IMG/VR virus record: IMGVR_UViG_3300028840_002630
Coordinates: 1-37,503 of that record
DNA from: a virus
Direction: 5' to 3' (one strand)
Length of the DNA stretch: 37,503 nt
Of this stretch, positions 7,155 to 37,503 are shown in pieces. The notes beneath the pieces were generated by a model, which saw only the letters and a program-made list of their open reading frames with translations, was not told where the DNA came from and searched no databases. Position numbers and translations under genes: made by a program. Positions within the stretch are counted from its first letter, which is position 1. Each line of letters starts with the position of its first letter.

Positions 7155-7192
7155 AGTTTGAAGTTTGAAGGGTGAAGTTTGAAGGGTGAAGG
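7155..7192. repeat. B-family heptamer repeat (TTTGAAG/GGTGAAG)
   Basis: Alternating 7-base units TTTGAAG and GGTGAAG fill the gap upstream of the 7151 start and run directly into the palindrome at 7193. The same B repeat plus palindrome arrangement recurs at 11333-11385. Confidence 0.85.
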
Positions 7193-8759: not shown

Positions 8760-8825
8760 GATGAGCTTTGAGCTATGAGCTATGAGCCAGAGGGTCTTGC
8801 TCACTGCTCACTGCTCATGGCTCAC
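8760..8825. repeat. A-family heptamer hairpin with loop GAGGGTCTT
   Basis: The left arm is built of TGAGCTT/TGAGCTA units and the right arm of their reverse complement (GCTCACT, GCTCATG), separated by CCAGAGGGTCTT. The segment can fold on itself. The same arm-loop-arm design with the complementary loop AAGACCCTCTGG is found near 14510, 28995, 29875 and 33740. Confidence 0.85.
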
Positions 8826-11332: not shown

Positions 11333-11367
11333 GTGAAGTTTGAAGGGTGAAGGGTGAGGGGTGAAGG
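11333..11367. repeat. B-family heptamer repeat
   Basis: TTTGAAG/GGTGAAG/GGTGAGG units lead directly into the palindrome at 11368, the same composite as at 7155-7210. Confidence 0.85.
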
Positions 11368-12472: not shown

Positions 12473-12510
12473 AGCTCATCGCTCACTGCTCAAAGCTCAC
12501 TGCTCACTGC
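12421..12510. repeat. A-family repeat flanking and entering two genes
   Basis: Arms of TGAGC and GCTCA units enclose the start codon of the 12472 gene and supply the last residues and stop of the 12490-13173 gene (VSSEL-stop). Confidence 0.8.
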
Positions 12511-13969: not shown

Positions 13970-14200
13970 CTTTTGGTATCCCATCCATTCGTGGAATCTC
14001 ACGAGCTGCTCGAGCGTCGCCGGCGAGCCCAGCGGCGGCGGTATCGTCGCCTCGGCCCGGTCCGCAGCGACAACCTCGGGCACCTCCACCAGCAGCGTTT
14101 GCATCGCGTCATCGTTCCATCCCAGTTCGTGGTAAATGGCTTTGAGCCTTGAGCGATGAGCTTTGAGCCAGCGTTCGATTTCCGCGCTTTCACCCTTCAC
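13952..14200 (-). CDS. Hypothetical protein whose start lies in repeats (82 aa)
   Basis: The core reads YHELGWNDDAMQTLLVEVPEVV, then PATLEQLVRFHEWMGYQKVW, a plausible soluble helical protein. The only in-frame start I find is a GTG inside a B-family repeat at 14200, and residues about 10-22 (RWLKAHRSRLKA) are encoded by an A-family repeat. The repeats have therefore either replaced the original start or extended the protein. The 3' end overlaps the next gene. Confidence 0.5.
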   Translation of the reverse strand: MKGESAEIERWLKAHRSRLKAIYHELGWNDDAMQTLLVEVPEVVAADRAEATIPPPLGSPATLEQLVRFHEWMGYQKVWKRS

Positions 14201-14217
14201 TCTTCACCCTTCAAACT

Positions 14218-14548: not shown

Positions 14549-16235
14549 TCACTTCGGCCGCTTCACTTGCTTCAGTTCCTTGGGCATGTCGATCCCGGCG
14601 TCGATGTCCTCCGGCTTCGGGATCTTCGCCACGAACGCCGCGACCAGGTCGCTCTTCGTCCCGCCCGCCGGCAGCTCGACGCCGAGCGCCTTGCCCTGCG
14701 CGACGAGCTGGTCCTTGCTCTGCCGGTTCCAGTAGGCCTCGCTCAGCAGCGGCCCAGCCTGCTCCTCGAGCCAGGCATTCTCGACGTCGATCTCGCACCA
14801 CTCGGCGATCGCCCACACGTCGGCCGCCGGCACGATCCGCGACGGCCCCGCCTTGTCGTCGCAGAAGAACCGGGCGACGAACTCGGCCGCCGCCTCGTAC
14901 ACATCGAATGCGTCGTCTTGCTCGAGCACGGCGCCGCAGATCGCGTCGCGGCTGCCCATCCAGGTCGACGCCCTGATCTTCGCCCCTTGCGTCCTCAGGA
15001 TCCCGGCCAGGTACTCGGCGTACTGATGCTCCTGCTGCAGCCAGTGGACGCCGGCGACCAGCAGCAGCCGGACCAGGCCGTCCTCGACCGCCAGACAGCC
15101 GTCGCGAATCGACTTAGCGATCAGGTACCGCCGCCAGTCGGTCGACCAGTCGACCAGCCACTTGCGGTACTTGGCCGCCCGCTCCTTCGCCTTCCGCTTC
15201 TCCTCCTCCGCCACCTCTTTCTTGGCTTTTGTGCTGCTGGGCTTCTTCGCACTGCCCTTCTTCCCGTTCTCCTTCGCCTTGAGCAACTCGTCGATCTGCG
15301 TCTTCCGCAGCTTCTCCCACAGCTTCGCGTTGGTCGCCAGCCGCTCCGTCTCGCCGCAGTCGTCGGGCACCTCGATCACGCCCAGCGCCTCCTCCTGCTC
15401 TGGCGTCACCGCGAAGATCTCGACGGCTCGGCCGACGCGATGGTCCCACAGCGAATCGTCCATCGGCTTGGTGACTCGCTGGACCCACCAGTGGACGTTG
15501 TTGGCGAATTGCTGCGAGTCGGGCAACTCGCCGCGCTTCAACTCCCGCTCGATCCCCTTCTCGATCTCCTTCATCACGGCCGGATGCCCGGCGAACGGCA
15601 CCAGGCACCGCGCGTGCGTCGCCGGTATTTCGCGCGAAATGACTTTCTTGAGTATCCCATTGGGTAACTTCAACAGCCGCAGACGATTCGAGACTTGTCC
15701 CTGCGACAAGCCGAGTTGCCGGGCCAGCTCGGTCGGCCCGGCCGCGTCGCCCGAGTCGATCGCCGATTGCATCGCCCGGGCCTCTTCCACCGGCCCCAGC
15801 TCCTTGCGGTTCATCGCGGTCACCAACACCAGCGCCCGGCACTCGGCATCGGTGCGGTCCTGCACCTCCGCCCGGACCAGCGTGAGCTTGCCCTGCTGCT
15901 TCGCCAGCTTGCTCGCTCGCAACCGCCGCTCGCAACCGCCGCTCGCCGTCGATCAGCTCGAACCGCTTTCCGCGCGGCTTGCGTCTGACGATGATCGGCA
16001 CGGCCAGGCCGTTGTTGACGATCGAGTCGGCCAGTTCGCGGATCTCGTCGTCGGGGAACTCCGTCCGGGGCTGAAACGGCGACGGGTCGATCCGCTCCGG
16101 GTCGATCGCCGTCGCCTCGACCACCACGTTTTTGATTGCCGCGCGCGGGCTCTTCGCCGCGGCGGCCCCGTTCGTCGACGCCTTGCCCCTCCTCGTTCGC
16201 GCCGCCGGTCGTTTCGCTTTCGTTGCCGTAGCCAT
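14549..16235 (-). CDS. ParB-family CTP-switch-like DNA-binding protein, frameshifted
   Basis: From ATG 16235 the product has a basic N-terminus, then the ParB domain: IRELADSIVNNGLAVPIIV (about 65-84), ELIDGERRLRA (about 93-103, the CTP-contacting arginine motif), NRKELGPVEEARAM, then a helix-turn-helix LARQLGLSQGQVSNRL. After about residue 190 comes a long charged helical C-terminal region. The frame breaks at 15921-15946, where 13 bases are exactly duplicated in tandem; removing one copy restores a 557-residue protein reading GERRLRASKLAKQQ. This may be a real inactivating slip, an on/off switch or an assembly error. No ParA is seen. One parS-like palindrome lies inside the gene (15627). 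A conserved leader precedes the start. Confidence 0.8.
15627..15640. promoter_or_regulatory. parS-like palindrome, copy 3 (inside parB-like gene)
   Basis: ATTTCGCGCGAAAT occurs within the ParB-like coding region, where it encodes ISRE. parS sites inside or beside parB are common in known systems. Confidence 0.7.
15921..15946. repeat. 13-bp tandem duplication breaking the parB-like frame
   Basis: AACCGCCGCTCGC occurs twice in direct succession. The unit length is not a multiple of three, so the copy number decides whether the ParB-like protein is in frame. Confidence 0.9.
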
Positions 16236-16393
16236 GACTTCCGCCTTTTGGTTGTTGTGTGAACTGAATCGGTTTGAACGCCTGCTTCGAGCTTTGAGTC
16301 CTTGAGTCAAAGACTCATGGACTCACCGCTCACTTCGCGCGTCCCGTTTTCACCCTTCGCTCTTCACCCTTCGCTCTTCACCCTTCAAACTTC
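16236..16393 (-). repeat. Leader element L, A-type and B-family repeats
   Basis: Before ATG 16235: CACACAACAACCAAAAGG, CCGATTCAG and GCTCGAAGCAGG. Further up, A-type units (TTGAGTC, ACTCATG) and B-family TTCACCC/TTCGCTC units reach into the end of the next gene. Confidence 0.75.
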
Positions 16394-17364
16394 CTCCCCG
16401 GAGGGCTTCGCTGCTTCGCTCGCAAGCCGATGCCCACTCTGCCGAGGATCTCCGGCGGATACCGCCGGTTGCGTTGGATCATCCCGAAGAAGTACCGACC
16501 GGGGGTCGTCTTGATCGTGTCGTCCGTCTTGGCCTGTCGAACGCGATCGAGGCACTCGTCGAGCAGGTCCAACGACACGCCGTGGTCGACGTGCATGCTG
16601 GCGACCTTCCAGTAGAACTCCAGATTCGTATCCGGGTCCGCGACGACGGCCCTCATCCGCCGGACCAGCTCTTCCTTGCGTCGATGGCGCGCGGCCTGGT
16701 CGCCGGCCGCGTCGACGATCGCCCCAACCACCGTACCAATGGGCGCCGGTTCCATTGCGCCTTGGATGTCTTGGTTTGGTTGCCTTTGTTCTTGGGGTAG
16801 ATATTTCTTGTTTTCTTGTTCTTGTTCTTGTAGGGCGCAAGAAGGACCTTTCGGCGCCGTAAGGTCCGGACCTTTTGGTACCTCACCGGACGATCGAGGA
16901 CCTTTCGGCGCCGTAACGTCCGCCCTTTCGGCCGCCTCCTCTTCGCGCGGACCTTTCGGCGCCGTAAGGTCCGGACCTTTGCGCGCCGAAAGGTCCGCCT
17001 CTTCGGCCGGTGGCGACGGTTCGAGCGGCAGCGGGATCTGCGGGTCGGGCCGTGCTTCGCGCCGTCCGGGCAGCGGATGATAGACGTAGATGTGGTGCAC
17101 GCCGCGGCGATCGGTCTCAACGATCTCGATCAGGTCCGCCTCGCAGAGGTTCACCAGCCACTTCCGCGCGGCCCGCGTGTCCCGGCCGCAGGCCCGGGCC
17201 AGCTCCCCGGGCGAGATGATCACGTAGTCGGGTCGGCAGTCGGCAAGCATCCAGAGGTGGTGATAGGCCAGTTTGGTCGCTGCTCCAAGCTGTCCGTCCA
17301 TCATGAGCATCTTCAGCGGCGCCAGTGCTTCGTGCACGTTCACGTTTCCGGCCATCCTGGTCAC
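16378..17364 (-). CDS. Replication initiator with internal origin
   Basis: Residues 15-97 form a winged helix-turn-helix (LGAATKLAYHHLWMLA, SPGELARACGRDTRAARKWLVNLC), like phage replisome organisers. Residues 125-175 are a low-complexity linker repeating KGPDLTAPKGP because the DNA beneath carries iterons. A Gln/Asn-rich part follows over an AT-rich tract, then a C-terminal helical domain (about 230-310) that could recruit a host helicase or loader. This mirrors lambda O, where the origin lies in the initiator gene. Starts at GTG 17364 or ATG 17355 are both possible. The last residues KFEG-stop are encoded by a B-family repeat. No polymerase or primase is encoded, so replication must use the host machinery. 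Confidence 0.75.
   Translation of the reverse strand: MTRMAGNVNVHEALAPLKMLMMDGQLGAATKLAYHHLWMLADCRPDYVIISPGELARACGRDTRAARKWLVNLCEADLIEIVETDRRGVHHIYVYHPLPGRREARPDPQIPLPLEPSPPAEEADLSARKGPDLTAPKGPREEEAAERADVTAPKGPRSSGEVPKGPDLTAPKGPSCALQEQEQENKKYLPQEQRQPNQDIQGAMEPAPIGTVVGAIVDAAGDQAARHRRKEELVRRMRAVVADPDTNLEFYWKVASMHVDHGVSLDLLDECLDRVRQAKTDDTIKTTPGRYFFGMIQRNRRYPPEILGRVGIGLRAKQRSPPGRKFEG
16780..17000. other. Predicted origin of replication (iterons plus AT-rich tract)
   Basis: Four near-palindromic 24-bp iterons lie at 16844-16867, 16898-16921, 16949-16972 and 16973-16996. Each starts GGACCTT, has GCGCCG near the middle and ends GTCC (AAGGTCC in three, AACGTCC in the second). On one side is a T-rich, AT-rich tract (about 16785-16832, TTCTTGTTTTCTTGTTC) suited to unwinding. 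This arrangement inside an initiator gene is that of lambdoid origins. Confidence 0.7.
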
Positions 17365-18496: not shown

Positions 18497-18621
18497 GGTC
18501 TTTGAGCTATGAGCTATGAGCTATGAGCGTTGAGCAATGAGCCGGGTTGGAACCGCCGAGGCGCGGAGACGCGGAGGGACGGCACGGATTTCTGATCCCC
18601 GCGCCTCCGCGTCTCGGCGGT
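18497..18621. repeat. A-family array and inverted D-family pair
   Basis: TGAGCTA units (18500-18542) are followed by two D elements facing each other: AACCGCCGAGGCGCGGAG at about 18549 and CCTCCGCGTCTCGGCGGTT near 18605. They could form a stem of over 20 bases. Confidence 0.8.
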
Positions 18622-19736: not shown

Positions 19737-19816
19737 AGAGATTGATGATTGCCGATTGATGATTGCTGATTGTCGAAATTCTTCTTTCACCCTTCACTCT
19801 TCACCCTTCACCCTTC
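19737..19816. repeat. C-family and B-family repeats upstream of the early operon
   Basis: GATTGAT/GATTGCC/GATTGCT units (19739-19776) are followed by TTCACCC/TTCACTC units (19786-19816). They fill the whole interval between the early operon start and the 19817 terminator. Confidence 0.85.
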
Positions 19817-19852
19817 AAAAAGCGCGCGGGGCGGCAACACGCCGCCCCGCGC
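19817..19852 (-). terminator. Strong intrinsic terminator at the end of the integrase operon
   Basis: On the minus strand a 12-bp GC-only stem (GCGCGGGGCGGC with its complement, 5-base loop) is followed within three bases by TTTTT. It separates integrase transcription from the early operon. Confidence 0.8.
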
Positions 19853-20249: not shown

Positions 20250-21314
20250 TCAGAACCCGGGCAGCGTCAACTGCGGGTCGTCGGCCGCGATCGCCGGCTG
20301 GGGGACCTTGTCGATCGCCTTGCGAACGACCTTGCGGTGCACGTAGTGCCTCCGCGTCACGTCGCGGCCGAGGTGCCCGAGCATCTTCTCGGCCGCCGCC
20401 GGGTCGTCTTCCCACAGCGTCGTGCCCAACAGCTTCCGCACGGCGTGGAAGCCGAACCGTCGCTCCGGCGGAATCTCGGTCTTGGCCAGGATTCGGCGAC
20501 GGTTCTCCTGCAGCCATGAGTGCCCATGCGGCCAGAAGAAGAGTCGCTTGTTGGCGGTCCGCACCGACTCGGCCGCCCGCAAGGCCGCCTCGTTCAGCGG
20601 GAACCGCTTGCCGTTGTTGCCCTTGATGATCCGTGCCGGCACGACCAGCTCGTCGCCCTGGATCATGCTCCACTCCAGCAGCAGGGTCGTCTCGATCCGC
20701 GTGCCGACGTTGTAGATCCAGATGATCAGCGCCCGCCACCAGAGCGCCGGCTCGACGCCGAGCTGCGGCACGGCCGCGTGCTTGCATGCTTCCAGCCAGG
20801 CGGAGATCTCGTCGAGCGTGAAGACGTTTTCGACCTCCTCCTCGCGCTTCGGCGGTCGCTCCAAATAGGGCACCGAGTCGAGCAGCTCGGCGGCCATCCG
20901 GCAGGCTCGTCGCTTCGGGCCGGCCAGGTCGATCACTCGCTGGAGATGCACACAGTGCTTGCGGACCGTGTTCGGCGAAATCGGCTCGCCGTCGCGCCCG
21001 TGCAACTTCGCCACGCGACAGACGAACTCGCTGCAAGCATTGCCGTCGATCGACGCGAGCGGCGGATCGCTGGTCAGCTTTTGCCAGTACCCCAGCGACT
21101 GCTGATACTGATCGAGCGTCCGCTGCTTGATCTGCCGGGGCCGCAATACGTTCGGCTCGACATAGGCCTCGTAGAACTCCCCGAGCGTCATCGTCGGCGA
21201 GAGTGTTTTGGTATCCCCAGGCGGATCGACGGTCGATGACGGCGCGGCGATCGGCGCCGGGTCGTCGCCGACGAACAATCGCAAGGCGGGCGGTGAGGTA
21301 GTAGCTGGTTCCAT
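20250..21314 (-). CDS. int: Tyrosine recombinase (phage integrase)
   Basis: The 354-residue product has a core-binding domain (about 43-150) and a catalytic domain with the expected residues: Arg206 in NVGTRIETTLLLEW, a lysine in KGNNGKRFPL, His290 and Arg293 in FHAVRKLLGTTLW, His314 in LGHLGRDVT and the nucleophile Tyr324 in RRHYVH. HAVRK replaces the more usual HDLRH but keeps the catalytic pair. It would integrate and excise the genome at attP, proposed at 24181-24291. The start at 21314 is the first after an in-frame stop. Upstream inverted repeats (21329-21345, 21356-21378) may control it. Confidence 0.93.
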   Translation of the reverse strand: MEPATTSPPALRLFVGDDPAPIAAPSSTVDPPGDTKTLSPTMTLGEFYEAYVEPNVLRPRQIKQRTLDQYQQSLGYWQKLTSDPPLASIDGNACSEFVCRVAKLHGRDGEPISPNTVRKHCVHLQRVIDLAGPKRRACRMAAELLDSVPYLERPPKREEEVENVFTLDEISAWLEACKHAAVPQLGVEPALWWRALIIWIYNVGTRIETTLLLEWSMIQGDELVVPARIIKGNNGKRFPLNEAALRAAESVRTANKRLFFWPHGHSWLQENRRRILAKTEIPPERRFGFHAVRKLLGTTLWEDDPAAAEKMLGHLGRDVTRRHYVHRKVVRKAIDKVPQPAIAADDPQLTLPGF

Positions 21315-22650: not shown

Positions 22651-23051
22651 GCGTGCGTTCCTTTCGTGCATACCCCGAGCACCCGGCAAGCTGCCGAGCG
22701 CGCGGAAAAAGACGCGCACGGCAGCCGCCGCAAGTGCATGGGAAAAGGCTCTGGTTAGGCCGGTACTAGGTCGTCCCTACCCCGACCGCGCTTCCGCACG
22801 GCCGCGGCCGTCAGAGCCCGAGAGAATCGCCAGTCGAAGGACCGGGCGAGTTCAGGCCAAGAGGCTGAGTCGGCGGGAGCATTTAGTAATCACGCCCGCC
22901 AAGTTAGCAACTCCCGGGAAGCCGTCAACGGGAAGTCGCTATTTTGTGGTCGACGGCAGGCGCAACCACTACATATTGTGGTTTCGCCAAGAAATGAGCA
23001 AACCCTTCACGCCCCACTGGCGAGAGGGTTTTGCGAAATCAGTGATTCAAG
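22651..23051. other. Gene-free control region before the RNA repeats
   Basis: No gene is supported. A weak minus-strand promoter (TTGCTA 22905-22910, TACTAA 22883-22888, 16-base spacer) could serve the integrase operon. Two hairpins follow: 22959-22988 (GGCG and AACCAC arms, one mismatch) and 23000-23032 (AAACCCT and CGCC arms), the latter followed by TTTTGCG on the plus strand and usable as a terminator on either strand. Confidence 0.5.
23000..23032. terminator. Bidirectional terminator-like hairpin beside the RNA repeats
   Basis: AAACCCT-TCA-CGCC-CCACT-GGCG-AG-AGGGTTT forms a two-part stem. It lies 20 bases from the first repeat unit and would stop a leftward transcript of the repeats. Confidence 0.5.
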
Positions 23052-23415
23052 GAGCGACTACGAGGTTTGTTAGAGGCCAAATGTTTCCGCGCCGGAAAGA
23101 GCCGGTGTGAGAAATGCCCCCACGTGCCTCACGACACGCGGAACCTCGTAGTCGCCTTGTATTCAGTTGTTCAGCATCAAAGAGCGACCACGAGGTGTGT
23201 TGTAGGCCGAACGCTCCGCGCCGGAAAGAGCCGGCTTGAGAAAATGCCCCCACGTGCCTCACGACACGCGGCACCTCGTGATCGCCTTGTATTCAGTTGT
23301 TCAGCTTCAAAGAGCGACTGCGAGGTTTGTCATAGGCCAAATGCTTCCGCGCCGGAAAGAGCCGGTGTGAGAAATGCCCCCACGTGCCTCACGACACGCG
23401 GAACCTCGCAATCGC
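23052..23415 (-). ncRNA. Three tandem 130-bp units of a branched structured RNA
   Basis: Units begin at 23052, 23182 and 23312, exactly 130 bases apart. In each, a 14-bp outer stem (in unit 1 23054-23067 with 23142-23155) encloses an inner CCGCG/CGCGG stem and two hairpins (CCGG with a six-base loop, and GTGAG/CTCAC with a 16-base loop). Between units the outer stem changes at three positions with compensating changes on the other side (T-A to C-G, A-T to G-C, T-A to G-C). The one mismatch in units 2 and 3 is A.C on plus-strand RNA but G.U on minus-strand RNA, so I propose transcription from the minus strand. No protein is encoded. Possible roles are an antitoxin-type RNA for the neighbouring membrane protein, a decoy or an integrase-region regulator. 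Confidence 0.65.
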
Positions 23416-23475
23416 CCTGTATCTTTTCAGGCGTCGTCGGCGGCCGTACACTAAGCAGTGAAAGGAGTTCCGCCG

Positions 23476-24139: not shown

Positions 24140-24180
24140 AAACACCCTCCTTGTTATCTGGCTTGACTATCTCGCCACGT

Positions 24181-24291
24181 GCGGATTATGGTTCCGCACC
24201 ACTGCCTCCCCCCCGGCTGTCGTAACTCCTCTGCCAGGGGCAAGTAGCGGCGCAGGGACTCGAACCCCGGACACGCGGATTATGATTCCGC
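24181..24291 (-). other. Probable attP: tRNA-Met 3' half and duplicated anticodon-arm core
   Basis: On the minus strand 24291-24245 reads as the 3' half of a tRNA: anticodon arm GCGGA-ATCATAA-TCCGC (anticodon CAU), a 5-base variable loop, T arm CGGGG-TTCGAGT-CCCTG, acceptor strand CGCCGCT and discriminator A. No matching 5' half is present, so it is not a tRNA gene. Phages that integrate into tRNA genes carry just such a 3' part. A near-identical anticodon-arm copy lies at 24181-24197, 94 bases away, and could be a second core-type integrase site. Confidence 0.55.
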
Positions 24292-24295
24292 AGTA

Positions 24296-24455
24296 TCCAC
24301 CGGACGGGTGGTCCGGTGCTCGGGGTTTTCGTCCGGTGCAGGGGGGTTTCGTCCGGTAGATGCACCGGACCGATTGTCCGGTGCTCGGGGTTTTCGTCCG
24401 GTACAGGGGGGTTTCGTCCGGTAGATGCACCGGACCGACTGCCCGGTGTTCGGGG
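24296..24455. repeat. 65-bp tandem repeats rich in CCGGT motifs
   Basis: The string beginning GTCCGGTGCTCGG recurs at 24311, 24376 and, altered, 24441, a 65-base period. Each unit carries three TCCGGT motifs and an inverted GTCCGG/CCGGAC pair. Being next to the tRNA-like core, it may hold arm-type sites for integrase or excisionase. Confidence 0.8.
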
Positions 24456-32522: not shown

Positions 32523-32646
32523 TTTGGTTGTTGCGATCACGGAATCGGTTGGAACGCGTGCGTCGGGCAGTGAGCTTTGAGCTATGAGCTACCAGGAAGA
32601 CCCTCGTCAATCGACAATCGTCAATCGACAATCGTCAATCACTCCT
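32523..32646 (-). repeat. Leader L, A-family arm and C-family repeats
   Basis: Before ATG 32522: CGCAACAACCAAA, CCGATTCCGTG and GCCCGACGCACGCG. Then an A-family arm, a shortened loop (AAGACCCTCG) and C-family GATTGAC/GATTGTC units in place of the second A arm. Confidence 0.8.
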
Positions 32647-33136: not shown

Positions 33137-33236
33137 TTTTTGGTTCCTGTGTGACGTGACTTCAACAATCGACAATCATCAATCGACAATCGTCAATCCG
33201 TTTCACCCTTCACTCTTCACTCTTCAAACTTCGTCC
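33137..33236 (-). repeat. Short leader, C-family and B-family repeats
   Basis: CACACAGGAACCAAAAA precedes ATG 33136; upstream are GATTGTC/GATTGAT units and TTCACTC/TTCACCC units. The B repeat provides the stop codon of the 33224 gene. Confidence 0.75.
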
Positions 33237-34321: not shown

Positions 34322-35674
34322 TCAGCTCGCGGCGAGCTTCACGCGGACGAAGGCCTCGCCCAACACGGGCATGCCGTCGGTCTCGGCGCGGCCGATGAAA
34401 CCGACCTGGTTGTTGCCGGCGTAGAGTTCCATCAGTCTTTGGAGACTGAAGTTCAACGCGTCGGCGATCCAGTAGTAGGAAAAGTCGCCGAGCATGCCGA
34501 CGTACTGGCTGGCGGTGAACGTGTTCGGGCAGTACTCCGACACGACGTAGGGGAAGTTCAACAGCGTGTTCGGCTGCCCGCCGGCGAGCCCCGGCTGCCA
34601 GATGTACTGGTTGTTGTCGTCCTTGAGCTTGCGGATCTGCTTGATCCCGTCGCGGTGCCACAGCCAGCGCGCGTTGGGCCAATACTGGCCCTTGAGCGTG
34701 TAGGCGACGTTCATCAGGCCGTCGGCCGTCACGGCCGTCGCGCCCATGTCGGTCGCCACGTCGCGGGCGGCGGGAATCCCGTTGTCGCTGAGCGTGAACA
34801 GGCCGAGCGGCTCGTTGGCGCCGCTGCCGGTCAAGAAGTTCGCTTCTTCGGTGACGCCGAATTTGTACGCCAGCCGGTTGCGGACCAACGCCTCGGCACC
34901 GCCGGACGTCTTCCGCAACAGCTTCATGCTGACCTTGACCAGCTTGGTCAACTGATGCGGGTGCAGCTCGCGCTTGCCGAAGCTCATCGTCGAGTCTTCG
35001 GAGACGTCGCCGATCTCCGCGGTCCAGGCCGGATCGGCCGGGTCGTTGTCCAGCGAGACGGCGCCCAGGCTGTCCGCATTGGGCACGAGATGGACGGTGG
35101 CGAGCTTCCGCAGGAAGCAGAGATCGTCCTTGGCCATGATCAGGCCGCCGACGAACTGGGTCGGGGCGACGAGGTAGCCGCCCGAGATGTCGGCGTCGGC
35201 CTGCAGGGCCCGCTGCTCGGACAGGCCGTAGAGGGCCTGCTGGCCGTCTCGCATGTACCCGCCAAACGCGTCGCGATAGGCCGGCTTGGCGCGTCGAATC
35301 TGGTCCGGATTGCCGGCCCAGCCGCGCAACTGCGACTCGGTGTCGTAGCGGCAGTCGTCCCAGCGGATCTCCGGATCGGCGCCCGAGCCGCGGGTGTCGG
35401 CGTCTTCGCCCGGGTTGTCGCCGCCCGGCTGGCCCGGGTCGCTCCGACGGTCGAGCGGCTGGTCGCCGAGCGCCTTGCGGCTGGCGAGCTGCTCCTGACG
35501 CTCGATCCGCTGGTCGTACTGATCGATGTCGGCGCTGATCCGGTCGTACTTCTCCTGCTCCTCGCCGGAGAAGACGCCCGGGTTGTCGCTACGGGCCTCG
35601 GCCTCGTCAACCAGGTTCCTCATCTGCTCGAAGGCCGTCGCGCGCTTGTCGCACAGTTCCTGAATGGTGGGCAT
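34322..35674 (-). CDS. Major capsid protein, HK97 fold
   Basis: The 450-residue product has an N-terminal helical delta/scaffold domain (about 1-115: MPTIQELCDKRATAFEQM, YDRISADIDQYDQRIERQE), then the capsid domain: ADISGGYLVAPTQFVGGLI, FLRKLATVHLVPNADSLGAV, LHPHQLTKLVKVSMKLLRK, LTGSGANEPLGLF and a final LYAGNNQVGFIGRAETDG with VLGEAFVRVKLAAS. The delta domain would be removed by the prohead protease encoded upstream. Family and role are firm. Confidence 0.95.
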   Translation of the reverse strand: MPTIQELCDKRATAFEQMRNLVDEAEARSDNPGVFSGEEQEKYDRISADIDQYDQRIERQEQLASRKALGDQPLDRRSDPGQPGGDNPGEDADTRGSGADPEIRWDDCRYDTESQLRGWAGNPDQIRRAKPAYRDAFGGYMRDGQQALYGLSEQRALQADADISGGYLVAPTQFVGGLIMAKDDLCFLRKLATVHLVPNADSLGAVSLDNDPADPAWTAEIGDVSEDSTMSFGKRELHPHQLTKLVKVSMKLLRKTSGGAEALVRNRLAYKFGVTEEANFLTGSGANEPLGLFTLSDNGIPAARDVATDMGATAVTADGLMNVAYTLKGQYWPNARWLWHRDGIKQIRKLKDDNNQYIWQPGLAGGQPNTLLNFPYVVSEYCPNTFTASQYVGMLGDFSYYWIADALNFSLQRLMELYAGNNQVGFIGRAETDGMPVLGEAFVRVKLAAS

Positions 35675-36034
35675 GGTCGATTCCTCTGTTTCTCACCGGC
35701 CCACCGGGCGCCCCCAACGAAACAAGCCGGACGCGGACTGCCGGCAGACCCTTGGCTGGGTTCTGCGAGTGGTCCACGCCCGGCTTGCCGGGTCGCTTCG
35801 CTCACTGTCACACACCGATCGCCGGACGCTGCTTGCAGCCCGGGCCCCTGGCCGCGGCCGGTGTGCCCTCTCTTCTGTTCGAGCCGTTCAATCTAGCGGA
35901 GGATCGGCCGGCCGTGGGCGGGATTTTTGGGCCGCGCGGGGAGATTGACGATTGCTGATTGCTGATTGCCGATTGCTGAAGGCCGAGGATTCGGACCCTT
36001 CCTTCGCCACTCAACAATCGCTAATCATCAATCT
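35675..36034. other. 360-bp capsid leader region
   Basis: No gene is supported. It contains GC-rich segments able to fold (CCCGGC/GCCGGG near 35786), then C-family repeats as an inverted pair: GATTGCT units at 35942-35980 and CAATCGC/CATCAAT units at 36012-36040. It is the likely 5' leader of the capsid transcript and may hold a late promoter, but no clear -35/-10 pair was found. Confidence 0.55.
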
Positions 36035-36703
36035 TCAATCCGTCATTTCGCGCGAAATACCCGCTTGCCGCATCCGCAGATCGAGCCGCCGGCGGGCCGT
36101 CGCGATCGAGGTCCGCGGCTGTTGCTCCTGCTCCCAGGCGGCGAACGAGGCTTCGATCGAGCGCTGCAGCGACAGGTTCATCCGCACACTGACCTCGGTC
36201 GTCGGGTAGGCCGCGGCAGTGACCGGCGAGACATCGAAGAGCTTCGCCTTGCTGATGATCCGGATCCGCTTGCCGTCTTCCTTCTTGTACTCTTCGTCGA
36301 GCACCCAGAAGCCGATCGACATTTGCGAGATGTCGCCGCGGCGGATCAGTACCACCGTATCACGGCCGAGCTGCGTGTCGGGCGGGTCGATCTCGATCGC
36401 CAGGCCGTGCTCGTCTTCCGACAGCCGAAGCGTCTTGGCCTTGTTTCGCCCGAGGACGTAGTTCACGTCGTGGTTGAACAGCGCGCGGATGTCGTCGGCC
36501 TTGAGCGATTCCTCGAACGCGCCGGGGAGGATCTCCTCAAAGTGGTCCGTCCACAACTCGGTCCGCTGATTGAACACCGCGGCATAGCCGACGATCTTCG
36601 GCTCGTTGCTCTCGTCGGACTCGCTGTCGTCGACGCGGAGTTCGCGGGCCGGGAAGATCCGCCGCTCAAGTTGACGCTTCCCCGGGATCATCGTCGTACT
36701 CAT
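36035..36703 (-). CDS. Prohead protease, HK97 gp4-like (S78)
   Basis: The product (222 residues from MSTTMIPGKRQ) has PKIVGYAAVFNQRTELW, FEEILPGAFEESL, IRALFNHDVNYVLGR with the catalytic histidine, and DISQMSIGFWVLDEEY with the catalytic serine, the standard order of HK97 prohead proteases. GAGG lies five bases before ATG 36703, which sits inside the portal 3' end. The last residues ISREMTD are encoded by palindrome copy 6. It cuts the capsid delta domain during maturation. Confidence 0.92.
   Translation of the reverse strand: MSTTMIPGKRQLERRIFPARELRVDDSESDESNEPKIVGYAAVFNQRTELWTDHFEEILPGAFEESLKADDIRALFNHDVNYVLGRNKAKTLRLSEDEHGLAIEIDPPDTQLGRDTVVLIRRGDISQMSIGFWVLDEEYKKEDGKRIRIISKAKLFDVSPVTAAAYPTTEVSVRMNLSLQRSIEASFAAWEQEQQPRTSIATARRRLDLRMRQAGISREMTD
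36045..36058. promoter_or_regulatory. parS-like palindrome, copy 6
   Basis: ATTTCGCGCGAAAT occurs in the last codons of the prohead protease, upstream of the capsid leader region. Confidence 0.7.
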
Positions 36704-37503
36704 CTTCATCCTCGCTTGGTAAGGTTGGGTCGTCGGGATCATCGGAGACCGAACGCGGCTGCAACCAGCCGTCGCGGCCTTCGTCGTCTTCGGTCGGCAG
36801 GGTCGGATCGTCGGGGTCGTAGCCGCCGGCGTCGGCACACGTGTGACGGGTGACGAGGGCGGATAATTGGTCCATCACCCGCTCGCACCACTCAGAGGCG
36901 TCCCAGCCACTGACGCAATGCGCGATCACCACATATCGATTGACCCCGGGCTCCGGCCCCGGAAGCCTGCGGATCATGCGATTGCAGTGATTGCGAGCCA
37001 AGCCGTCGGCGAAACGCAGAAGAGCCTCGCGAAAGCGGGCCGATGGCTCGCCTGCCAGGTCGATCGAGCCGGCCTGGATCGCGGCCATCGTGCTCGCGTA
37101 GGCGTCGATTACGGGCTGCCAGGCATTGCGCAAATACGTTTCGTGTTTGTCGGCGAAGCTGGCGGCCCATGTATCGAACGCCTCATGGTTGGGCTCCGCT
37201 CGCTGCAGGTGTCTCTTCGCTGCGCCACAGACTGCATTCTCACCTCGTCGTAACGTCCGTCGTGCCGCGTCGCGGAAGAGGTGGCGATACTGCCGCTTGC
37301 ATACCGATCGCATTTGCTTCCATATCGCAACGTGGCGATCGTCCCGCTGGCTCGGTTCGTCGTCTCCTGCCTGGTCGTCGGTCGCGTCGTCGTCGACCTG
37401 GTCGTCAGCCGCCTGGTCGCCGTAGATGTCGTCGACGTGCTCGAGCGGGACCATGTTCAGCGGGACGAACCGGCGATCGCCCTCGGGGCCGATCGGGTTC
37501 ATG
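36666..37503 (-). CDS. Phage portal protein, C-terminal part (joins 1-1216)
   Basis: The frame runs in from the circle junction (NMNPIGPEGDRRFVPLNMVP, a typical portal stretch), then has an acidic linker (GDQAADDQVDDDATDDQ), a helical block (CKRQYRHLFRDAARRTL, WAASFADKHETYLRNAWQPV) and a distal acidic tail in which DPDDPTLPTEDDEG is followed by DPDDPTLPSEDEDE, an internal duplication. Portals of this class are often about 400-500 residues, so the extra roughly 230-residue C-terminal region is notable. It overlaps the prohead protease start by 38 bases. Confidence 0.88.
   Translation of the reverse strand, partial: MNPIGPEGDRRFVPLNMVPLEHVDDIYGDQAADDQVDDDATDDQAGDDEPSQRDDRHVAIWKQMRSVCKRQYRHLFRDAARRTLRRGENAVCGAAKRHLQRAEPNHEAFDTWAASFADKHETYLRNAWQPVIDAYASTMAAIQAGSIDLAGEPSARFREALLRFADGLARNHCNRMIRRLPGPEPGVNRYVVIAHCVSGWDASEWCERVMDQLSALVTRHTCADAGGYDPDDPTLPTEDDEGRDGWLQPRSVSDDPDDPTLPSEDEDEYDDDPGEAST
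37460..37503. repeat. Terminal overlap, right copy
   Basis: Identical to bases 1-44; it indicates circular closure of the assembly. Confidence 0.9.

Follow-up and report, generated by a model that had tools for sequence, protein, structure and literature searches.

A 13-bp tandem duplication, which is probably a recent and sporadic event and is known here from one assembled sequence, interrupts a ParB-like gene in the circular genome of a temperate phage. At the GERRxR motif, which binds CTP, the duplication shifts by +13 (i.e., +1) the frame of a gene encoded on the minus strand (positions 16235-14549) of the window, the entire stretch of 37,503 nucleotides that was analysed. GERRxR is the CTP-binding arginine patch, substitutions of which abolish CTP binding in the Streptomyces ParB protein (PMC12207404).

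The two halves of the gene are read in different frames. Frame 0 is open on the 5' side of the tract (15915..16235, minus strand, starting with the ATG at 16235) and encodes the ParB_N (CTPase) domain up to and including the GERRLRA motif (PF02195, E 5.4e-16). On the 3' side, the adjacent frame (14549..15922, minus strand) carries the rest of the N-terminal domain, HTH_ParB (E 1.1e-13) and a C-terminal region common to the ParB protein of plasmid pPLIM01, and it closes with the stop at 14549. After the duplication, the two domains that members of the ParB/RepB/Spo0J family carry on the same protein are, thus, found in one protein only if both frames are read through, as was done for the search. 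In this read-through protein of ~557 amino acids, the ParB_N match lengthens from profile position 65 to 87, its E value improves from 5e-16 to 7.5e-17, and HTH_ParB lies directly next to it. As given, translation from the ATG at 16235 goes out of frame past GERRLRA and runs through an extension (15114..15914, minus strand) to the stop at 15114-15116; in the profile search, no domain beyond ParB_N was found in this product. A codon-usage scan places the switch of the best frame exactly at the tract and, apart from the first short start window, nowhere else in the gene. The preliminary description, according to which a duplication at GERRLRA throws a ParB that is otherwise intact out of frame, is borne out by both the domains and this frame switch; likewise, since codon bias is intact on both sides of the tract, the disruption is recent, as had been proposed.

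The 13-bp unit AACCGCCGCTCGC is found at 15921-15933 and again at 15934-15946 on direct reading, and TRF reports an array at 15914-15946 with a period of 13, 2.5 copies and 100% match, which confirms the duplication and extends it. The perfect 13-bp periodicity covers 33 bp on the minus strand (15914..15946; sense unit GAGCGGCGGTTGC), corresponding to two full copies plus 7 bp, and is, therefore, longer than originally described. The 7-bp direct repeat GCGAGCG, at a spacing of 13 bp, flanks the unit and ends the tract (2x13+7 = 33), which is the configuration of microhomology-mediated tandem duplications (MTDs). The tract is not due to chance: when 100 sequences, matched in length and composition, were simulated with a third-order Markov model, none contained a 33-bp tract with a 13-bp period, and exact tandem duplications with a period of at least 12 occurred at a mean of 0.01 per simulated sequence. 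All other exact tandem arrays in the window with units of at least 12 bp have a period of 14 and are mostly intergenic according to the gene list; the parB tract is the only one inside a known domain and is a non-triplet tandem unit within coding sequence.

As for its origin, the single-copy form would have contained GCGAGCG twice on the sense strand, at this 13-bp spacing. During replication, strand slippage or a template switch from one of these copies to the other may have produced the two-copy, 33-bp periodic tract, the predicted product of which is a truncated ParB devoid of HTH and C-terminal domain, i.e., a null or near-null allele. The tract now presents a 20-bp direct repeat, which would make reversion through loss of one copy relatively easy. 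Sporadic emergence and reversion have been described for microhomology-mediated tandem duplications in a review (PMC13207564).

The relatives of the gene bear on what its original state was. Its nearest relative is the ParB/RepB/Spo0J family protein WP_041404074 from the Planctopirus limnophila plasmid pPLIM01, with ~28-32% identity and an alignment that runs end to end across both sides of the frame join, and the ParB genes of other viral records have one continuous open frame through the motif. Among relatives having the motif, none contains tandem copies at this position, and none contains a 7-bp repeat spaced by 13 bp; at an offset of +13, matching runs do not exceed 5 bp. Because the relatives are continuous and carry neither tandem copies nor the 7-bp repeat, sequence comparison shows that the family has the continuous single-copy form and that the duplication is private to this sequence; the case that homologues share the duplication and conserve the frame downstream of it, which had been named as refuting the initial proposal, does not apply to the relatives. 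These relatives are distant: protein scans of IMG/VR and bacterial genomes yielded no close relative, searches of IMG/VR contigs yielded neither another one covering parB of the same phage nor the exact duplicated 33-mer, and the only near-DNA match in phage and plasmid records was a stretch of ParB from a Sphingopyxis plasmid, with 69% identity.

Two separate genes are ruled out, given that the relatives use one continuous frame; in practical terms, parB should not be annotated as two genes. It is also very improbable that, through ribosomal frameshifting or an internal restart, ParB remains active or its HTH part is made as a protein of its own. Possible starts in the downstream frame are available (ATG 15812-15814, GTG 15863-15865 and TTG 15920-15922); however, no convincing ribosome-binding site precedes those closest to the tract, AAGGAGC being present ahead of only the GTG at 15788-15790, no recognised +1 slippery site was seen on reading of the tract, and the frame of the homologues is continuous. 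Among the relatives, the ParB gene at L014:4716-5243 is 90% identical to that of L009 over ~507 bases, after which the similarity ends abruptly and the frame closes, reflecting either a recombination breakpoint or a chimera; it was rejected as a second broken parB, ending at this abrupt similarity break and not at a repeat.

The preliminary description had further interpreted the tract as a slippage switch. An evolved phase-variable switch would turn ParB on and off by copy-number slippage, e.g., for plasmid-like maintenance or ParB-dependent regulation; each gain or loss of the non-triplet unit would shift the frame, and short tandem duplications, including duplicated 13-bp units, are intrinsically revertible by copy loss. 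However, accidental revertibility differs from an evolved phase switch, and the evidence does not favour the latter. There are only 2.5 copies of a single unit, no variant with another copy number was seen, the array and the predisposing 7-bp repeat are missing from the relatives examined, and the exact duplicated motif is missing from the other IMG/VR contigs searched. In addition, this GC-rich genome contains 534 7-bp repeats spaced 8-30 bp apart in the window, with 16 others in the parB gene, and nothing, therefore, marks the tract site as an evolved hot spot. With such repeats common here and absent at this position in the relatives, phase variation is unsupported; this part of the earlier interpretation was not upheld, and we attach very little probability to it, preferring a sporadic duplication.

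Whether loss of ParB could be tolerated relates to its partner. Searching for ParA with PF13614, the only family used, gave no hit in the window, in a related record of 37,448 bases (L018/G004) or in pPLIM01, while 14/14 control genomes were positive; the ParA ATPase partner of a ParABS system was, thus, not found with this family. Of 39 records whose capsid is related, many of them fragments, two contain ParB_N, and in these phages ParB is, therefore, probably an accessory gene. Since ParB is rare among them and no ParA was found, its loss may be tolerable. If the two-copy form were shown to be frequent in the phage population and to revert there, this would represent a partition gene under the control of repeat copy number; yet, that a phage ParB without detected ParA is toggled by a 13-bp duplication on its CTP-binding motif, switching plasmid-like maintenance of the lysogen, is highly improbable.

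The main rival to a real mutation is an artefact of library, sequencing or assembly, or a minority variant. The second copy would then stem from polymerase slippage during library amplification, from a low-coverage consensus or from a rare variant picked by the assembler, with parB intact in the population. Several observations favour this: the record is metagenome-derived and displays strain variation (six mismatches over 4.26 kb relative to contig L015), the parB genes of the relatives are intact, and no gene of the genome other than parB is clearly broken, the last observation also favouring a recent sporadic mutation. On the other hand, a 33-bp tract fits within single reads and usual assembly k-mers, and assemblers more often collapse short tandem copies than invent them, making invention without supporting reads unlikely. 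Overall, we regard this explanation as rather unlikely and retain a genuine, sporadic duplication as the preferred one.

The window corresponds to a complete virus record, of which positions 1-44 are identical to 37460-37503 (44 bp), though it starts and ends inside a gene. The independent contig L015, from an IMG/VR record of another name and the only near-identical one (99.8-99.9% identity), crosses the end join but covers only 35620-37503 and 1-2415 and, hence, misses parB. The identical ends and the contig spanning the join show a circular or circularly permuted genome of ~37,459 bp. The element is a circular temperate-phage-like (phage-plasmid-like) genome encoding terminase, prohead protease, HK97-type capsid, tape measure, integrase (20250-21314) and a replication-initiator-like protein; pPLIM01, as the single basis, suggests a planctomycete host. 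General frame decay of the element was rejected, as genes that simply overlap seem to account for the other direct frame changes, the clear ones having been checked by eye. In the related 37,448-base record, the ParB-like gene is intact. The upstream neighbour of parB is the replication-initiator-like gene (16378..17364, minus strand), inside which palindromic repeats GGACCTT...AAGGTCC (GGACCTTTCGGCGCCGTAAGGTCC, about six imperfect copies) are located at 16843-16997; these may mark a replication origin that lies, as in lambda O, inside the gene of its initiator, or else sites to which ParB binds.

Further repeats are scattered over the window. About 20 arrays with a period of 7 (heptads, e.g., TGAGCTA/TGAGCTT, TTCACCC and GATTGCT) are mostly intergenic and are found at 7155-7191, 8761-8824, 11334-11367, 12488-12510, 14187-14213, 18499-18535, 19784-19819, 32570-32640, 33201-33232, 35943-35979 and other positions; periods 8 to 11 account for 0-4 arrays, and six related records contain 0-1 heptad arrays each. 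They resemble heptamer repeats that have been reported from intergenic regions of Beggiatoaceae and cyanobacteria (PMC4679880), but several different heptads occur in the window, and they are probably more interesting than the parB duplication. The intergenic region 23047-23422 comprises three direct repeats of 130 bp that are 87% alike and each have inverted ends of the type GCGACTACGAGGT ... ACCTCGTAGTCGC. The region 24180-24455 contains two tRNA-like stretches (anticodon/T-arm part; e.g., GGACTCGAACCCCGGACACGCGGATTATGATTCCGC), for which ARAGORN made no tRNA call, followed by 65-bp repeats with CACCGGAC/GTCCGGTG; this region is possibly the attachment site of the integrase.

Among known systems, pPLIM01 offers the closest comparison for the gene and its element. 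Its ParB has the same domains, ParB_N and HTH_ParB, followed by a long C-terminal region, and can be aligned over its full length; the plasmid is likewise a circular ~37-kb element with a phage tape-measure gene and without detected ParA, but its ParB is intact, has GHTR for GERR in the motif and lacks the 13-bp repeat. Simple-sequence phase-variable (contingency) genes resemble the tract in that a non-triplet tandem copy number sets the reading frame. In such genes, the short units are numerous, strains share the array and variants are present, none of which was seen for the parB tract. Regarding the duplication itself, the MTDs of fission yeast ssp1 (PMC13207564) are the nearest counterpart. 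In fungi, these are reversible and their mechanism is described in terms of break repair, whereas here a phage genome is concerned, in one assembly, for which slippage is assumed and reversibility would follow from the repeat; in both cases, a short direct repeat flanks the unit, one copy becomes two and a coding frame is shifted, and the tract as it stands is one more short tandem-duplication frameshift.
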